Shown here piece after piece: positions 16,501 to 43,500 of a stretch of 64,000 nucleotides of DNA. The stretch covers positions 56,322,761 through 56,386,760 of the forward strand of contig OZ024869.1 of the NCBI GenBank assembly GCA_964017185.1, in the 5' to 3' direction. A program made the translations under genes and the position numbers. This stretch comes from Rugalucina vietnamica (lineage: Eukaryota; Mollusca; Bivalvia; Lucinida; Lucinidae). Each line of letters opens with the position of its first letter. Position 1 is the first letter of the stretch. A model generated the notes under the pieces. That model was not told the origin of the DNA, searched no databases, and was given only the letters and a program-made list of their open reading frames with translations.

Positions 16501-19500
16501 AGAATTTTGTCTTTTCTCTGGTGGCTCCGATTCATTACCTTTTGTAACCTATGTTGAAGATCCCGCAGGTAATCATTGGCATCTGCTGCTGTTTCATGAC
16601 CTACAAAATATATGAGTTTTGTTGTTAGAATGGCTTCCAGTTGAAAACTGGCATGCTCAATCATAGACTTGATACTTAGCTAACACAAGTTGTAGGTCTC
16701 TGACCAGGCTCAAATAAAGAAGACGCAAAACCACAGAGGTATCATAATTGTACCTGTTCATTCTCAAAGAAAAACTAATGAAATGGCCCTAAACCAAAAG
16801 GTTACAACCAAGCTTACTTGTGAAAATTGTTTTGAAAATACCTTCTTTTTGCATCCATACATATTTAAAGAAACAGATCTGTAGTGTTGCATGGCTTCTA
16901 TCTAAAACAATGATCAAATTAATCATCAGGAAAACATGTCCATGCAATAAATACCCCCTTAAACCACACTTTTATATAGAAAAACTGGGGTTTGCAGGGG
17001 TAAACCCCGGTGGTGTCACTCTTGAATTTTTTTGGGACCATGCTTGTTCCAAAAATCGCGGAAAAGGGGGTACTTTTGAGGTCAAAACGCGGACCGCGTT
17101 TTGGGGAAAAAGGGGGGTAATTTCAAATCGGGTTCCTCGTTTTCCATATTTAGGGGTGTTTTTCATTTCACTGTATTTCCGCGTTTAGGGGTGTTTAAAA
17201 TCTCTCGCCGCATTTTTCGATGGAAAGGGGGTGTTTTTATCTGATTCTAATTCCGCGTTAGGGGTACTTAAATTCCGCCCCTCCGCGTTAAGGGGTATTT
17301 TAATTCCGCCCCTCCGCGTTTCCCACAGAAATGGTGTTTTCGTTTACGCTTACGGGAACGGGAGGACTTTCCGTAATTTTTTGTGGAAACCAAACCAGTC
17401 AAATTTTATAAAACGTTTTTCTATTGGACAATGATTTTTAAAATCAACAAATAAATTATGAGATGCATATAAAATCAACCAATCAACGAGGATATTCCAT
17501 CTTGTATCGGATTTTTTCTCGGCTCCAAAACTTACTAAAATGGACGTCGATTGTCGGGGCAATCGGCGTGGGGCCTGCCGAAATCGCCCTGACTGTAGCT
17601 TCATAAGTGAAATTGGGGCAGTTAGGTGTGCATACTGCGGTTGCCCACCGGGGCAGCACGAGCTTGGTAAGGATGTAGAGTTAAAATAGCAATTTCGCAC
17701 ATGAATTTGGATGGTTCAAAAGTTGGTCAATCACGGAGTTGGTGGGTGGGGTGGGTGGGTTTGACTTTACTAGTTGGTTGGATAAAAGGGGGTGATAATT
17801 TTGTACAATGTCCTGGTTTTCGAAAAAAAAGGGGGGTATTTTGACAGTAGGTTGTCCTTGTTTTTACGATAAAAGGGGGTGATAACTTTGTACAATGTCG
17901 TGATTTTGCCAAAAAAGGGGGTATTTTGACAGCAGGTTGTCCTTGTTTTTGCGATATAAGGGGGTAATAATTATGTACAATATCCTTGTTTTTCTGAAAA
18001 GGGGGTTATTTTGACAGTTGGCTGTCCTTGTTTTTGCGATAAAAGGGGTATAAAATCTGTCAAATATCCTTGTTTTCGCGCGAAAGGGGGTATTTTTACA
18101 GCAGTTAGTCCTTGTTTTTGCGATGAAAGGGGGGTAAAAATGCTCCAGGAAGTCCTTGTTTTTGCGACATAAGGGGGGTGTTTTCAAAAACGTGGAACGA
18201 GCATGGGGTCAAAAAAATTTTAAGAGTGCCACCGCCGGGGGGTAAACCTATTTTTCTTATTTTTGCTTCAAAACATAGATTGTGGGTACTCGTTAGAACC
18301 GCCTCGCCGAGGCGGTCCTGACGTGTACCCACAATCTATGTTTTGAGCAAAAAAAATAAGAAATATAAAAAAAATCTACAGAAACTTTTTCATTTTTTAC
18401 AACTTTAAAAATCTATGTTTATTGCATGGACATGTTTTCGTAATTATGTCTTCAGCAAGTTCTTACTGTAACTAAGAAAAGATCACTGTTTTACAGCTTT
18501 ATTCCCTTACCTTCATGGTGAAATGTGAGCATACCATACATAAATACCAGTAACTGAAATATACACAAAATCAGGTTATTAGAAAGTATCTTGAGACAAT
18601 ATTTTGACTGTTGTTTTTTTTTTCTTTCTTTTTTTTTTCAAGTTGGTGCAGGGAATATTATTGTGGCCATGCCATTTTAGTGGCCTGCTTACTAGCTACA
18701 TCATGCTTTTGCTTTCATCGACCAGAATTGTATTTGTGAAGTAAAGTTTCATTCTAATGGTTATTGTCTATTGGCAGTAGATATATTAAAGGACTTTGAA
18801 AACGCCTCACTATACATCGATTATCATTTTGGTCAAAACTGGTTAAAATTAGCCCGAAGTATACAATACACATAATAGTGTGTATCTTAACATGATAAAC
18901 AACATTTATTAACAAAGATGTGTTTGCTTGATTGTTAGTTAATACTGCTTTCTTGGGACGTAACGTTTCTGTTGTTTTGTCAAAAAAACCTTAGGACGGC
19001 TACAAAAAGACTTTTTTTGAAAACAAACCATCCCCGATGGTAGCGTACAACCTTAAGCACAAGAAAAGCAAAATCAAAATTAAAATGGGAACTTTCGTTC
19101 AATGCCGTTTAACGAGCTAGCGCTTTTTCGCTGACGTCAAGCGTGGTGTGGTCAAAACACAAAGGCATTAATTTAGAGCGCCAAAAATTATGGTAATTTT
19201 TACCAAAGTCCGTGCCTATTCATTGTGTTTGAAAACTTTCGAATTCGTTTCATTTTACATGCAAAAATTAAAGTTTTCTTCATAAATGTTAAAGTGACGT
19301 AATTACCATAATTTTAGTGCAACTGAAAGACAACTAACAGCATTTGATTGGCTTTTTGTGTTTCTTTCCAGAAATCATGTTGAACCTGATGAATATTTTT
19401 CATCCTCATAGTTTGTTTTTGTTGAATTTTTGGTAATGTTTGAAATCATACTGTATGACGTAAATCACTGGCGTTTCGGTTTTGGTATGGAATTTAAGCA

Positions 19501-22500
19501 GACTGTACTTTTCTGTTCGAAAATATTTTTGCCGAAATATCCTGTATTCTAAAAGAAATACTCATCATTGCGACCAATTTATAGTGAGGCGTTTTCAAAG
19601 TCCTTTAGTATACAAAGTCCATAATTACTTATTTCTAGCTGGTTTCTAACTATATTAGCTGGTTTTGTTGATTCAATGAGAAACTAGAGGACCATTGGTC
19701 CTGTAGCTCACCTGAGAGATTATCACATTGTAAGCTCATGAGATTTAAATTAATTGAGAATCGACCAATGAAAGTCTATGCATGGACACTATTGACCCCC
19801 GGGGCATGGCCAAATTTGACCCAGGGGCATGACTGGCACAATATATGTTGGGGACTACCAAACATTGCTACATACAAAATATAGAAGCTCTGGGCCTTTT
19901 GGTTTCAGAGAAGAAGTTTTTTTTAGTTTTTCCCATTGTAAGTCTATGGAGACTATCTACCCCCGGGGCGTGGCCAAATTTGACCCCAGGGGCATGGCTG
20001 GCACAATTTATGTAGAGGACCATTAGCCATTGCCACATACAAAATATCAAAGCTGTGTGCCATGTGGTTTCAGAGAAGAAGATTTTTGAATTTTTTTTCC
20101 CATAGCAAGTCTATTGAGACTATCAACCTCCGGGACCTGGCCAAATTTGACCCCAGGGGCATGAATGGCACAATTTATGTAGAGGACCATTAGCCATTGC
20201 TACATACCAAATATCAAAGCTGTGGGCCTAGTGGTTTCAGAGAAGAAGATTTTTTAAGTTTTTCCTATTGTAGGTCTATGGAGACTATCGACCCCCGGGG
20301 CGTGGCCAAATTTGACCCCGGGGACATGATTGGCACAATTTATGTAGAGGACCATTAGCCATTGCCACATACAAAATATCAAAGCTGTGGGCCCTGTGGT
20401 TTCAGAGAAGAAGTTTTTTGAATTTTTTCCCATAGTAAGTCTATGGAGACTATCAACCCCCGGGGCGTGGCCAAATTTGAACCCAGGGGCATGAATGGCA
20501 CAATTTATGTAGAGGACCATTAGCCATTGCTACATACCAAATATCAAAGCTGTTGGCCTAGTGGTTTCAGAGAAGTAGATTTTTTTAGTTTTTTTCCTAT
20601 TGTAGGTCTATGGAGACTATTGACCCCCGGGGCGTGGCCAAATTTGACCCAAGGGGCATGATTGGTACAATTTATGTAGAGGACCATTATATAGCCATTC
20701 CACGTACAAAATATCAAAGCTGTGGGCCCTGTGGTTTCAGAGAAGAAGATTTTTTAATTTTTTTCCCATAGTAAGTCTATAGAGATTATCAACCCCCGGG
20801 GCGTGGCCAAATTTGACCCCAGGGGCATGAATGGCACAATTTATGTAGAGGACCATTAGCCATTGCTACATACCAAATATCAAAGCTGTGGGCCTAGTGG
20901 TTTCAGAGAAGAAGATTTTTTTAGTTTTTCCAATTGTAAGTCTATGGAGACTATCGACCCCCGGGGCGTGGCCAAATTTGACCCCAGGGGCATGGCTGGC
21001 ACAATTTATGTAGAGGACCATCAGCCATTGCCACATACCAATTATCAAAGCTGTGGGCCCTGTGGTTTCAGAGAAGAAGATTTTTTAATTTTTTTCCCAT
21101 AGTAAGTCTATGGAGACTATCGACCCCCGGGGCGTGGCCAAATTTGACCCCTGGGGCATGAATGGCACAATTTATGTAGAGGACCATTAGCCATTGCTAC
21201 ATACCAAATATCAAAGCTGTGGGCCTAGTGGTTTCAGAGAAGAAGATTTTTTTAGTTTTTCCTATTGTAGGTCTATGGAGACTATCGACCCCCTGGGCGT
21301 GGCCACATTTGACCCCGGGGACATGATTGGCACAATTTATGTAGAGGACCATTAGCCATTGCCACATACAAAATATCATAGCTGTGGGCCCTGTGGTTTT
21401 AGAGAAGAAGGTTTTTGAATTTTTTTCCCATAGTAAGTCTATGGAGACTATCTACCCCCGTGGCGTGGCCAATTTTGACCCCAGGGGCATGAATGGCACA
21501 ATTTATGTAGAGGACCATTAGCCATTGCTACATACCAAATATCAAAGCTGTTGGCCTAGTGGTTTCAGAGAAGAAGATTTTTTTAGTTTTTTTCCTATTG
21601 TAGGTCTATGGAGACTAATGACCCCCAGGGCGTGGCCAAATTTGACCCCAGGGGCATGATTGGCACAATTTATGTAGAGGACCATTAGCCATTGCCACGT
21701 ACAAAATATCAAAGCTGTGGGCCCGGTGGTTTCAGAGAAGAAGATTTTTGAATTTTTTTCCCATAGTAAGTCTATGGAGACTATCAACCCCCGGGGCGTG
21801 GCCAAATTTGACCCCAGGGGCATGAATGGCACAATTTATGTAGAGGACCATTAGCCATTGCTACATACCAAATATCAAAGCTGTGGGCCTAGTGGTTTCA
21901 GAGAAGAAGATTTTTTAATTTTTTTCCCATAGTAAGTCTATGGAGACTATCGACCCCCGGGGCGTGGCCAAATTTGACCCCAGGGGCATGAATGGCACAA
22001 TTTATGTAGAGGACCATTAGCCATTGCTACATACCAAATATCAAAGCTGTGGGCCTAGTGGTTTCAGAGAAGAAGATTTTTTTAGTTTTTCCCATTGTAA
22101 GTCTATGGGACCTATCTGTTGCCATGGAAACCACAATTTTGATACAATCTGCTCCAAAACCTAATGCCATCAATCCCCCAACCCAATTATGGTTCACATT
22201 AAATTTGATCAAGATCGGCCTACTAGCTTCAGAAATATTCTTCTTTAAAAGTGTGGACGGACGACGACGGACGACGACGACGGACGACGGATGCCTGCCT
22301 ATCCTATAAGCTCACCTGTGAGCCTTCGGCTCAGGTGAGCTAATAATTACACGTGTGAAGATGTTTTTTATCAACTGGGATCGACTTGGTCTAAAAGACA
22401 GACACATAAAACACAACAAGGAAATAGATCTGACAATCATAGTGATTTTATAAACCTCAAAAAGCAGAAAATTTTAAAAACTCGGAAAGGAGGAAGCAAT

Positions 22501-34500: not shown

Positions 34501-37500
34501 GATCAAAACTTGAAAAAAAAAACAATCTACGGAATGGTTTACATAGACTTTAGAGCAATATTGGCATTGACTGAAAGTTTGAACACAAAAGAGCTAGTCA
34601 TAAAGGTTAACGTATAGCTGGATTGATAAGGTGCATTTGCTTTTGTTTTGTCCATGTTTGAGTTATGTCCCTTAGTCGACAAACGCAGATCGCTTTACTT
34701 CACTTGCTAATTTAGCACAAGACGAATATGGCCTTCATATCGGGACGACAATTTCATGATTTTATATAATAACATTGTGAAAATATCCAAGAATCGTTGG
34801 ATAGATTATATGCTGAAAGTTGCGTTTTTAATGGTTTTAAGTATATAATCTGAGAAGCCACATGAACTTTTTAAGTGTAATTTCCAAAAAACGACTAAGT
34901 TCAAATTGCAAAGTGATAATAATTAAGCTGAGGATTATATGCAAACCATATGCGTATCTTCAAAGCATTATAAAGACATTTGTAAAGTTTCAAAAGAATC
35001 GGAATGAAACTGTAGGAGGAGTTGCGCACACAAGGTACCCCCTGTCCATTCACTCTCATTGTCAAAATGACCGAAAAATGACTAAGTTCAAGTTGCGAAC
35101 AAAAGTAATAAAAATTAATCTGAGTTTCATATCCAACCACATGCATATCTTCAAAGCCTAGTAAAGACATCTGTAAAGTTTCAAAAGAATCGGAATGAAA
35201 CTGTAGGAGCTGCGCACACAAGGTACCCACAGTGAGTGAGTGTCCATTCACTTTCATTGTCAAAATGCTCGAAAAATGACTAAGTTTAAATTGCGAAAAA
35301 AGTGTGAAAAATTAATCTGAGGATCATCCAAATCACATGCATATCTTCAAAGGATGGTAAAAACATCTGTAAAGTTTCAAAAGAATTGGAGTAAAACTGG
35401 AGGAGGAGTTGCGCACACAAGGTACATACTCTATAGGGGGACGGAAGGACGGACGGACAGACGGACGGACGGAATGACAAAAACTATGTCCCTCCGCTTT
35501 TCTTCGAAAAGGCTGGGGACAACTAAATTAAACTGGAGACAGGACGGGCTGAATCTGGTGTCCGTGAGATCCCTGAGCGTAAAGATACATAACAACTAAT
35601 AATCAACTAGAATTGTCAGAGAATCTGACTATAGCCCCGCTTCTCAGCTTTTTTTGCAGCGTGAAAAAAACAATGACAGGTAACTATCACAAGCTAGATC
35701 TCATCAATATTGATGCGCATACAAAATTTGGTCTGATTATGTCAATTCGTTCTCAAGATATTGAGCGGAAACGAAATTCTGACCTCAATAAAGGGCCATA
35801 ACTCCGTCAAAATTTTGCGAAAAATGACGAGTAACAATCCCACGCTAGATCTTGTCAATGTTGATGTGCATACAAAATTTGGTTGGATTCTGTCAATTCG
35901 TTCTCAAGATATTGAGCGGAAATGAAATTCTGATGTAACTCCGTCAAAATTTGCGAAAAATGACGGGTAACAATCCAAAGCTAGATCTTGTCAATGTTGA
36001 TGTGCATACAAAATTTGGTCGGATTCTGTCAATTCGTTCTCAAGATATTGAGCGGAAACGAAATTCTGACGTCAATCAAGGGCCGTTACTCCGTCAAAAT
36101 TTTGCGAAAAATGATGGGTAACAATCCCAAGCTAGATCTTGTCAATGTTGATGTGCATACATAATTTGGTTGGATTCTGTCAATTCATTCTCAAGATATA
36201 GAGCGGAAATGAAATTCTGATGTCAATCAAGGGCCGTACAGTAACTCCGTCAAAATTTTGTGAAAAATGACGGGTAACAATCCAAAGCTAGATCTTGTCA
36301 ATGATGACGTACATACAAAATTTGGTCAGATTCTGTCAATTCGTTCTCAAGATATTGAGCGGAAACAAAATTCTGATGTCAATCAAGGGCCGTAACTCTG
36401 TCAAAATTTTGAGAAAAATGACGGGTAACAATCCCAAGCTAGATCTTGTCAATGTTGATGTGCATACAAAATTTGGTCGGATTCTGTCAATACGTTCTCA
36501 AGATATTGAACGGAAACCAAATTCTGATGTCAATCAAGGGCTGTAACTCTGTCAAACTTTGGCAAAAAAATGACGGGTAACAATCCCAGGCTAGACTTTG
36601 CCAATGTTGATGTGCATACAAAATTTGGTCGGATTCTGTCAATTCGTTCTCAAGATATTAAGCGGAAACGAAATTCTGATGTCAATCAAGGGCCGTAACT
36701 CCGTCAAAATTTTGCGAAAAATGACGGGTAACAATACTAAGCTAGATCTTGTCAATGATGATGTGCATACAAAATTTGGTCGGATTCTGTCAATTCGTTC
36801 TCAAGATATTGAGCGGAAATGAAATTCTGATGTCAATCAAGGGTCGTACAGTAACTCCGTCAAAAATTTTGTGAAAAATGACGGGTAACAATCCCAAGCT
36901 AGATCTTGTCAATGATGACGTACATACAAAATTTGGTCAGATTCCGTCAATTCGTTCTCAAGATATAGAGCCAAAACGAAATTCTGACGTCAATCAAGGG
37001 CCGTAACTCTTGTCAAAATTTTGCGAAAAATTACGGGTAACAATCCCAAGCTACATCTTGTCAATGTTGATGTGCATACAAAATTTGGTCAGATTCTGTC
37101 CATTCGTTTTCGAGCTATTGAGCGGAAACGAAATTCTGACGTCAATCAAGGGCTGTAACTCTGTCAAAATTTTGCGAAAAATGACGGTTAACAATCCCAA
37201 GCTAGACTTTGTAGTCCTGCAGATATCTAGCTTGACCCGAAATGCGGTTCAAACTTTTTTTCTTGGCTGATTCTTGTTGCTTAGATGTAATCATTAAAGA
37301 ATCTGACTGATGCCACCTTGGCATCATTGAGCATTTTGAGAAAAACAAGATGGCGTCCAATATGGCGGCTCAATATATGGGCTGGTCATAATAAAGCTTC
37401 TATTTGCACTCAGGGCATATTTAATTTCAAATATTTGACATAATTTTATAAATTGAATATCAAAAACCATTTCCTGCTAGCATGGTAATATTCATCTAGA

Positions 37501-40500: not shown

Positions 40501-43500
40501 CAAGTATTCAAGTCCTGGACATAGCAAAACAAGTGATAACATATATTTAGCGACCATTCTGGACGCCATCTTGAATATCTCAAAATGCTCAATGATGCCA
40601 AGGTGGCATCAGTCAGATTCTTGAAGGGCAAGGTCTTGGCTACAAGAATCAGTCAAGAAAAAAAGTTTGAACCCTATTTCCGGGGCCCGATAAAATGCCC
40701 CATAAATCTGCAGGACTATTGCCAATGTTGATGTGCATACAAAATTTGGTCTGATTCTGTCAATTCATTCTCAAGATATTGAGCGGAAACGAAATTCTGA
40801 ACTCAATCAAGGGCCGTAACTCTGTCAAAATTTGACGAAAAATGACGGGCAACAATCCCAAGCTAGTACTTGCCAATGTTGATGTGCATACAAAATTTGG
40901 TCTGATTCTGTCAATTCGTTCTCAAGATATTGAGCAGAAACGAAATTCTGATGTCAATCAAGGGCTGTAACTCTGTCAAAATTTGGCAAAAAAATGACGG
41001 GTAACAATCCCAAGCTAGACTTTGCCAATGTTGATGTGCATACAAAATTTGTTCTGATTCTGTCAATTTGTTCTCAAGATATTGAGCGGAAACTAAATTT
41101 TGGCAATAATGAAGGGCCAATTATTTATTCCAAGGGCAATAACTCTTCTGAAAATTTGGGGAAACTGACTTGCATTTACACATAAGTAGATATTGTCAAT
41201 ATTTATGCATATGACAAATTTGGTTAAAGTCTAACAACTGATTCTCAAGTTATGTGTGGTAATGGTATGACGGAAGGACGGAATAACAGAATAACGGAAC
41301 TACGGAAGGACAGGGTGAATCCAGTATAGCCCCCACTTTTTCAAAGCGGGGCTATAATTACTGTATTGAGCTTGTGCTGATCAACCGTTGCGACGAGGAG
41401 ACAGACAATAGAAGGGTTTATGCTTTGGTAATTAGACCAATTACGTTACCACGCTTCAGCGACTTTGTTATAAATACAATTTAACAATATTATAATGAAA
41501 ACCTACGCCAGGGTTTATAACCTTGAAACAGGTGTGAACAACGCTCTATAGTTACTGTTCAAGAGAACGATCAAAATTTTGGCTCTAAATATGGTCGCAA
41601 GAATGCAAAATTTTAGTCAAAACAGGGATACAGACTAACCAATTTTTTATAGGGGCAAGCTGGGCCCCTAAAAAAATGAAAACTAGGGGCCCACATGAAA
41701 ACTTGGGGGGCCACATTTTTAATCTCACAAAAAAAGGCAAATGGATAAAAATTTATTCAAGAACATCAACAATTATGGTAATATTAATAACAGTGTTCAC
41801 TGAAGGTGAGACCTTGCAGGACACTTGGTCAGACAGAGTCGGAATTTCTGTCTGACCGAATCAGTTTCTGGCTGACCGCAAAAGAATATGTGGTTTCCCT
41901 TACGCATTCTCGATGCTCAAGATCTGAAAGGCACTGAAAAATTTATCAAATTTGAGACCCTTCAGCAAAAGAATGTTGATTAAAAAAGGTGCATGGCATG
42001 GGTACAAGTTGAATGGATTAAAATTACAACATGATTGTTTGTTTTCTCTCTCATTTCTTCTATCTCTGAGTCAGTTCATGTGGAAGGCAACATTAGCACA
42101 AGCCTAAGAAACTGTTTGTTTGGCATTGGTGACCCAGGTTCTCACATAATGCGTCGTTCGGTTGCTATTTTTTGAGTCTATTTACAAGGTATTTGTCAAA
42201 AGCTTAAACTTGTCAGATCCATTGGGCCAGGCAAATCGGCAGATTTTTAGCTTAAAATGAAGAAAGAAGAGCGGTTGTCATGCCCAAGATCGATGCTTGT
42301 TCGCATGATTATCAACCATAGTCGGAAAGTCTTTCCATGATTTACAGAACAAGTCCTCTTCAGTACCTTAATTAATTTTTTAGACCATTGGGTATTTACC
42401 CACCCCTTTTTCATTCAATTGGGTATCTGAAATTTTAATTGGGTATGTTCAATATTTTTACCCACTCTGTTTTTAATCAATTGGGTAAAATGGAAAAACA
42501 ATTGGGTAATTCGTCATGAAAAAAATATTAATTGGGTATTTTGTGTTTAATTATTTTTTATCATTTATTAAATCTTATTTTTTAGATATTACTATTTCAC
42601 TGTACGTTGTACTGAACTGAAGGGACAAAATGAAGCCAAATGTAAGAAAGACTATAAAATTTCTACCGTAAAACAAAGAGACCACTCAATGGATTTCAGC
42701 TGATTTGAATGTGCTGCAGACATGGGTCAATAAGACCAGCCAAGGAACTTTAAAAAGCTAAAAAAAATCTCTCATTTGCGAACTAAGTCTACTTTCATTT
42801 TCAATAAAATCATGCTTACCCCCATTGAAAGTGATTTCAAACCCGATTTCAAACGTAAATTCCCGACCTGACACTTGTAAAAACGTTCTTTCACAATTCC
42901 ATTGAAGAAAGGTTGCGTATAGAGATCAAATCGGCATAGACTACCGGTTTTTTTATTGTTATTTATTTGCTTTGCGGCATATAGAAACCACGTTTTCCAT
43001 TTTTGAGAAAATCCCCCGATAGTGGATCTCGTCGTTATCGGATACTGCAAATAATCGCTTTAGGGCGCGCTGGAAACCAGGGACGAACCGAGTTTAATTA
43101 TTCCGAATGAAACTGGTACAACTACTTGCCGAAAAGAAACGGCTTGAAATTTTGATAAAAACCGGTACGCACTTGATTTTCCTGGAATTGCGTATCAGAG
43201 ATTTCTTTTGCGTTTTCTTACGCTACCGGATCGTTATGAATTACGTATTTTGATAATTTAATTGCGTAATTACGCAAATACGCATGCTAATTAAGGTACT
43301 GCCTCTTTCATGCAGAACAAAACAAAACAAAACAAAAATTCTTTGCCTGATCGAACTGTCAACCCAAGTCGCATGCGCATGTCTTTTGGACACTTGATAG
43401 ACTGCTTTACTGGCCAGTTCATTATCACAAATGCGCAATGGATTGGCCTATTTGCATACTCCCTTGTGATTGGTCTTCTAAATATATTTGGCGTCTGGTT

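Follow-up and report, generated by a model that had tools for sequence, protein, structure and literature searches.

What is a short cysteine- and histidine-rich reading frame, preceded by TATA-like boxes and followed by a candidate splice donor, doing between inverted repeats in the genome of a lucinid bivalve? The question arises in a stretch of 64,000 nucleotides from Rugalucina vietnamica (contig OZ024869.1; the whole stretch is called the window here), where a first-pass annotation had proposed either a mobile promoter and first exon within an inverted-repeat element at 16987..18250, or a decayed gene flanked by repeats by chance. The window element is one copy of a recently spread DNA transposon without its own transposase. 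The inverted ends that had been proposed are there, and the limits have to be redrawn, the true ends lying at 17006 and 18239. The bases directly outside these two positions are an 8-bp duplication, GGGTAAAC, and the repeats are the element's own ends, which removes the flanking half of the decayed-gene reading. The parts of the element, in window coordinates, are:

17006..18239, plus strand: the whole element, a non-autonomous DNA transposon of 1,234 bp, other copies of which have the same ends and different flanks
16998..17005, unstranded: left 8-bp target-site duplication GGGTAAAC, identical to 18240-18247
18240..18247, unstranded: right 8-bp target-site duplication GGGTAAAC, matching the left one
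17006..17052, plus strand: left terminal inverted repeat, beginning CCCGGTGGTGTCACTCTTGAA, placed by end comparison
18193..18239, minus strand: right terminal inverted repeat, beginning CCCGGCGGTGGCACTCTTAAA in the minus-strand reading, placed by end comparison
17056..17325, plus strand: left subterminal array of G-rich repeats, in part with units of about 31 bp (repeat families D2-D7 and D9)
17781..18190, plus strand: right subterminal array of 42/85-bp G-rich repeats (repeat families D1 and D2)

The inverted ends are about 47 bp long and, across the family, start with CCCGGYGGTGKCACTCTT (end type CCCGG). The left array is related to the right one, and between them lies a non-repeat island of about 400 bp (~17340-17735) with the TATA-like boxes, an ATG and the GTAAGG motif. 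An ORF scan of the element found no long ORF and no transposase. Inverted ends, locus-specific duplications of constant length and the absence of a transposase are all present, as in non-autonomous class II TIR elements. Ds of the Ac/Ds system and long MITEs are alike in their inverted ends, constant duplication, near-identical copies, subterminal repeats and missing transposase, whereas the present element carries a non-repeat island with TATA boxes, a Cys-rich ORF and a donor.

Within this genome (1.09 Gb on 47 contigs), at least 43 places match the element, 27 of them near full-length at 97-100% identity, and most of the remainder are pieces of copies split by insertions. Forty-seven copies were fetched, truncated and partial ones included. 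The ends fall on the same bases in the 38 copies that have both (L002 was placed one base off by the script), and an exact 8-bp duplication was measured in 34 of these 38. Among the four non-exact pairs, that of L002 becomes a perfect 8-mer once it is moved by one base (by eye), while L024 agrees at 7 of 8 positions, L016 at 6 and L017 at 5. Four copies (L013, L024, L025 and L026) have common flanks over about 420 bp on the left and about 780 bp on the right and are therefore one insertion duplicated with its surroundings; the duplicated flank explains the one 8-mer common to all four, and the 38 copies thus represent about 35 insertions. The end pattern, at up to 3 mismatches, was found at 101 ends genome-wide and at none with a reversed-pattern control; since six listed matches belong to another repeat, about 95 ends are left, or roughly 48 copies. 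Mean divergence from the majority sequence is 0.55% (27 copies), and a tree of 40 copies is star-like. The family is a young non-autonomous DNA transposon, and its life cycle is probably ordinary.

Around the window copy, a hairpin at 18249-18365 (58-bp arms, 83% complementary) adjoins the element, and the L036 copy sits in similar-looking hairpin sequence. A 30-bp inverted repeat (16922-16951 and 18418-18447, 90%) encloses element and hairpin together, which suggests that the element inserted into an older inverted-repeat element. Tandem arrays lie at 19782-22116 (units of about 165/331 bp), 35935-37206 (151/303 bp) and 40714-41099 (151 bp), the last two having consensus units that share sequence by eye. 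At L029, positions 2291-2832 hold a 542-bp inverted-repeat element of another family, with ends AGTGTTG...CAACACTA and a duplication of about 9 bp, situated at query position 411-419 of one copy.

As to superfamily, hAT and P elements make 8-bp target duplications, and hAT ends are usually of the CA type; the present family is like hAT in its duplication, and its ends are CCCGG. In the Zisupton/KDZ group, cysteine clusters lie beside the transposase. Membership of this group seems unlikely to us. The genome does hold two KDZ-transposase matches above cut-off (E below 1e-5), but one of the two loci, checked over 8.5 kb in which the KDZ element's own ends were not found either, has no similar end (best 7 mismatches in 21), the element has no KDZ transposase, and its ORF has no match to the Pfam cysteine-cluster families. 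What the element family does have in common with Zisupton is the 8-bp target duplication that the latter makes (PMC12730594). At C4:59927300-59935800 (L078), the frame that holds the KDZ match is open over 1,048 codons and is preceded by another of 337 codons.

The features that drew attention to the locus all belong to the island:

17407..17413, plus strand: TATA-like box 1
17468..17474, plus strand: TATA-like box 2, 72 bp upstream of the ATG
17540..17689, plus strand: Cys/His-rich ORF, 49 aa to TAG, with an exon-1-like part at 17540-17666
17667..17672, plus strand: candidate splice donor GTAAGG

Direct reading agrees with the first-pass annotation on the two TATA-like boxes (at 17407 and 17468), on the ATG ORF at 17540 with C5, C13, C19, C30, C33, C35 and H40, and on the sequence of the GTAAGG donor motif after 17666. 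TATAWAW occurs three times on the plus strand against a mean of 0.47, and 1.6% of 500 shuffles reach three (a post hoc test); the third occurrence, at 18049, is within the right array. The ATG has A at -3 and G at +4, in keeping with the start-context rule. The claim of a kappaB-like site fared less well: GGACTTTCC is indeed present, but the count of GGRNNYYCC is at the chance level (2 against a mean of 2.02 in 500 shuffles). In its exact form, the 9-mer GGACTTTCC appears in 0.9% of 3,000 shuffles, but the stretch that contains it groups, at 68% identity, with family D3, a G-rich repeat unit of the element itself.

The majority of the 27 copies has one further cysteine, C16, which is changed in the window copy (C16R), and in the majority sequence the spacing reads C-x2-C-x10-C-x2-C. 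Chance tests were run on this majority sequence with dinucleotide shuffles and were picked after the sequence had been seen. They bear on the reading that the Cys-rich frame arose incidentally and has no coding past, which we regard as possible and somewhat less than probable. As many as 98.5% of 3,000 shuffles contain an ORF that starts with ATG and reaches 40 codons, placing the ORF length at the chance level, and a single-sequence fold is of low confidence (mean pLDDT 46.6); the neutral substitution pattern of the exon and the failure to find relatives outside the family, both given below, point the same way. The composition of the frame argues against it, as an ATG ORF with 7 or more Cys is seen in 1.4% of 3,000 shuffles and C-x2-C-x10-C-x2-C in 0 of 3,000 (both post hoc). 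An antisense ORF of 84 codons overlaps the island, so that either strand may be the coding one.

The first-pass annotation had tied its mobile-unit idea to other copies keeping the frame and the donor, and they do. Among the 27 copies without a nested insert, the frame is open in 26, all eight Cys/His positions are kept in 24 and the donor core GGTAAG in 25. The open frame is explained by the youth of the copies (mean 0.55% divergence). The exon has 15 replacement and 5 silent substitutions, where the element-wide spectrum predicts 15.7:5.0; nothing here points to selection on the exon among copies, a result that covers the copies and not the source copy. The idea of a mobile unit with frame and donor kept is upheld; a function of the kept frame is not supported, given the youth of the copies and the neutral 15:5.

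A second transposon has landed in this one. A single insert family is present in 16 of the 47 fetched copies (L030-L041, L043, L046/L047, L048 and L050); about two thirds of the fetched copies, the window copy included, are without it. Whole inserts are mostly 1.9-2.0 kb (range 1.4-3.6 kb, plus one of about 14.8 kb on C6). Judged by its sequence, the insert is PIF/Harbinger-like, since it has ends GGCG...GGCC and 3-bp TWA-type duplications: TTA or TAA stands at 17 of 20 left flanks of inserts elsewhere in the genome, and the duplications within the host element are TTA, TAA and TGA. ORF1 and TPase genes are absent from the insert, and with a longest stop-to-stop frame of only 85 to 138 codons in 11 inserts it is non-autonomous. 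mPing and the Tourist-like PIF/Harbinger MITEs are alike in their 3-bp TWA-type duplication and absence of long ORFs, whereas the nested insert, unlike mPing, is about 1.9 kb and recurs within another transposon at exact positions. Transferred to window coordinates, these positions are:

17456..17606, unstranded: hotspot with five insertion positions, used in 15 of the 47 fetched copies
17456-17458: TGA insertion site, one copy
17459-17461: TGA insertion site adjacent to the preceding one, one copy
17532: TTA insertion site, 2 copies
17536: TAA insertion site, 8 copies
17604: TAA insertion site, 3 copies

Four of the positions precede the ATG and the fifth falls within the ORF, and all five are confined to about 150 of 1,234 bp, at the TATA-ATG-exon island. 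The element holds 50 TWA triplets, only 6 of which fall between 17440 and 17620. The L048 copy is rearranged, the host stopping at the 17604 site, a truncated insert coming next and the host appearing again at about 17731; it may be a deletion product of the 17604 site or a sixth position.

Five distinct positions mean at least five insertions. The divergence of inserts relative to their hosts suggests about seven independent ones: at 17536, the insert groups L034/L037/L038 and L035/L036 differ by 3.6-5.7% against 0.56-0.93% for the measured host parts (the host of L035 being too incomplete), and at 17604 the L040 insert differs from those of L039 and L050 by 2.9-3.2% against 0.75-1.03% for the host parts. 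Gene conversion between inserts is the alternative to separate insertions at shared positions. A first look at the genome gave 683 candidates for the insert family. If there were 683 insertions genome-wide, 0.04 would be expected in the host family by chance; if there were 20,000, the expectation would be 1.1 and the probability of five or more 0.006. The host element holds 10 of the best 40 insert-family matches (the query counted among the 10), a share favoured by the choice of query, which itself came out of a host copy. For 20 of the 30 remaining matches in this set, the left flank is unlike the host, so the insert family does not need it. Close inserts at one position can stand between different outer 8-mers (L034/L038, 0.6%; L032/L033, 0.4%), which suggests that composites of host and insert also moved as units.

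Such a hotspot could arise from an extended target motif or from the open chromatin of an active promoter. Repeated PIF/Harbinger-like insertion would be explained if germ cells still kept the island accessible or transcribed it, an idea that we hold tentatively and rate below an even chance. A further step would be to regard the element as a mobile promoter and first exon, with transcripts starting in the island, splicing from 17666 downstream and giving neighbours a zinc-finger-like leader. The TATAWAW excess (3 against 0.47), the start context given above, the persistence of the donor core (25 of 27 copies), the zinc-finger-like spacing seen in 0 of 3,000 shuffles and the position of the other transposon's hotspot at TATA-ATG-exon are all consistent with this, the hotspot giving it the strongest support, of an indirect kind. 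It is nevertheless improbable, as exon changes are neutral per copy and 10 of the 47 copies have an insert, at 17532 or 17536, that lies between the ATG and both TATA boxes. In its fullest form, a live germline promoter and zinc-finger first exon would seed chimeric transcripts, open chromatin would draw in the second transposon and the composites would move together, a scenario to which we likewise give little credence.

The island may instead have come from elsewhere. NZF (RanBP2-type) zinc fingers have the spacing C-x2-C-x10-C-x2-C preceded by a tryptophan; the majority sequence has NZF-like spacing but not the tryptophan before it, and the window copy has lost C16. The best phmmer matches in PDB are the NZF fingers of TAB2, TAB3 and RNF31/HOIP, all weak (best E 0.018, 0.09 and 0.16; range 0.018 to 0.33). 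This resemblance of the four-cysteine pattern, and a non-repetitive island between two repeat arrays, would suit gene capture, in which the promoter and first exon of a host gene were taken up by the transposon. We think capture rather unlikely, as neither the window nor the majority version of the ORF has a Pfam zinc-finger match (the majority version gives only HypA, E 2.1) and no parental copy of the island was found in the genome: all 48 candidates for exon relatives (E up to 10, every one scored) lie in copies of the family, and so do, among 52 candidates for promoter-stretch relatives, all 40 that received a score. No relatives of the ORF were confirmed in viral contigs. Pack-type transposons likewise have a gene-like piece between transposon ends, Pack-MULE and Tgm-Express being named as gene-capturing examples (PMC1947982); the present case differs in that a parental gene was not found in the genome searched.

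A longer relative of the element was also sought. No transposase-bearing relative and no longer element sharing the exon was seen among the loci read, a set that leaves out a lone left end at C13 24343432, a copy at C11:8823809-8826975 and C2 beyond 3 kb. Five left ends beyond the first list were followed, on C8, C6, C10, C9 and C2, and none looked like a parent over the parts read. The C8 locus, of which all 21 kb were read, looks like an ordinary copy that has received two insertions, one a 3.6-kb Harbinger-like insertion at 17536 and the other, of about 16 kb, in the right array at query position 981-983 with a 3-bp overlap (L043-L045); in the latter, Pfam recognises DDE_3 (Tc1/mariner-like) in a frame of 301 codons, while nothing passes the cut-off for another frame, of 405 codons. 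At C6 (16 kb), an insert of about 14.8 kb sits at 17536, and both of its ends, which were read, match the Harbinger-like family. C10 and C9 are copies with insertions, and over the 3 kb read at C2 the element's left part is followed by an incomplete insert and, beyond it, by unrelated sequence. Another group of similar ends, in 11 places, was rejected as well, the end being a fragment within a larger repeat because the 250 bp outside CCCGG are the same in the six places fetched. A repeat carrying a fragment like the element's end was observed at L051-L057, with internal arrays of units of about 100 bp (L051, by eye). At C12:20172405-20188113 and C16:33302588-33317129 (G000), two such repeat blocks stand in opposite orientation about 14-15 kb apart, resembling a large element with long inverted repeats. 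A literature search of partial coverage turned up nothing recognised as this transposon family, which says little about novelty.

The explanation that we favour overall, and consider likely, is a young non-autonomous family that would be mobilised in trans, the island perhaps being a rider from a lost longer element. A transposase encoded elsewhere would mobilise the element, recognising its ends and perhaps its arrays too. The island (~17340-17735) would be what remains of the 5' part of a gene (promoter, first exon and donor) of a longer ancestral element, retained when the rest of that ancestor was lost and since then riding along without selection on the copies. For this account of the island itself, as a 5' gene remnant carried along in such a way, the balance is about even.

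With roughly 48 near-identical copies (about 95 ends), each carrying its putative promoter-exon-donor island elsewhere in the genome, the family could serve as a natural experiment on whether such islands give rise to transcripts. In the repeated, base-exact landing of a Harbinger-like element beside the start codon, the exploitation of one transposon by another can be read as a record.
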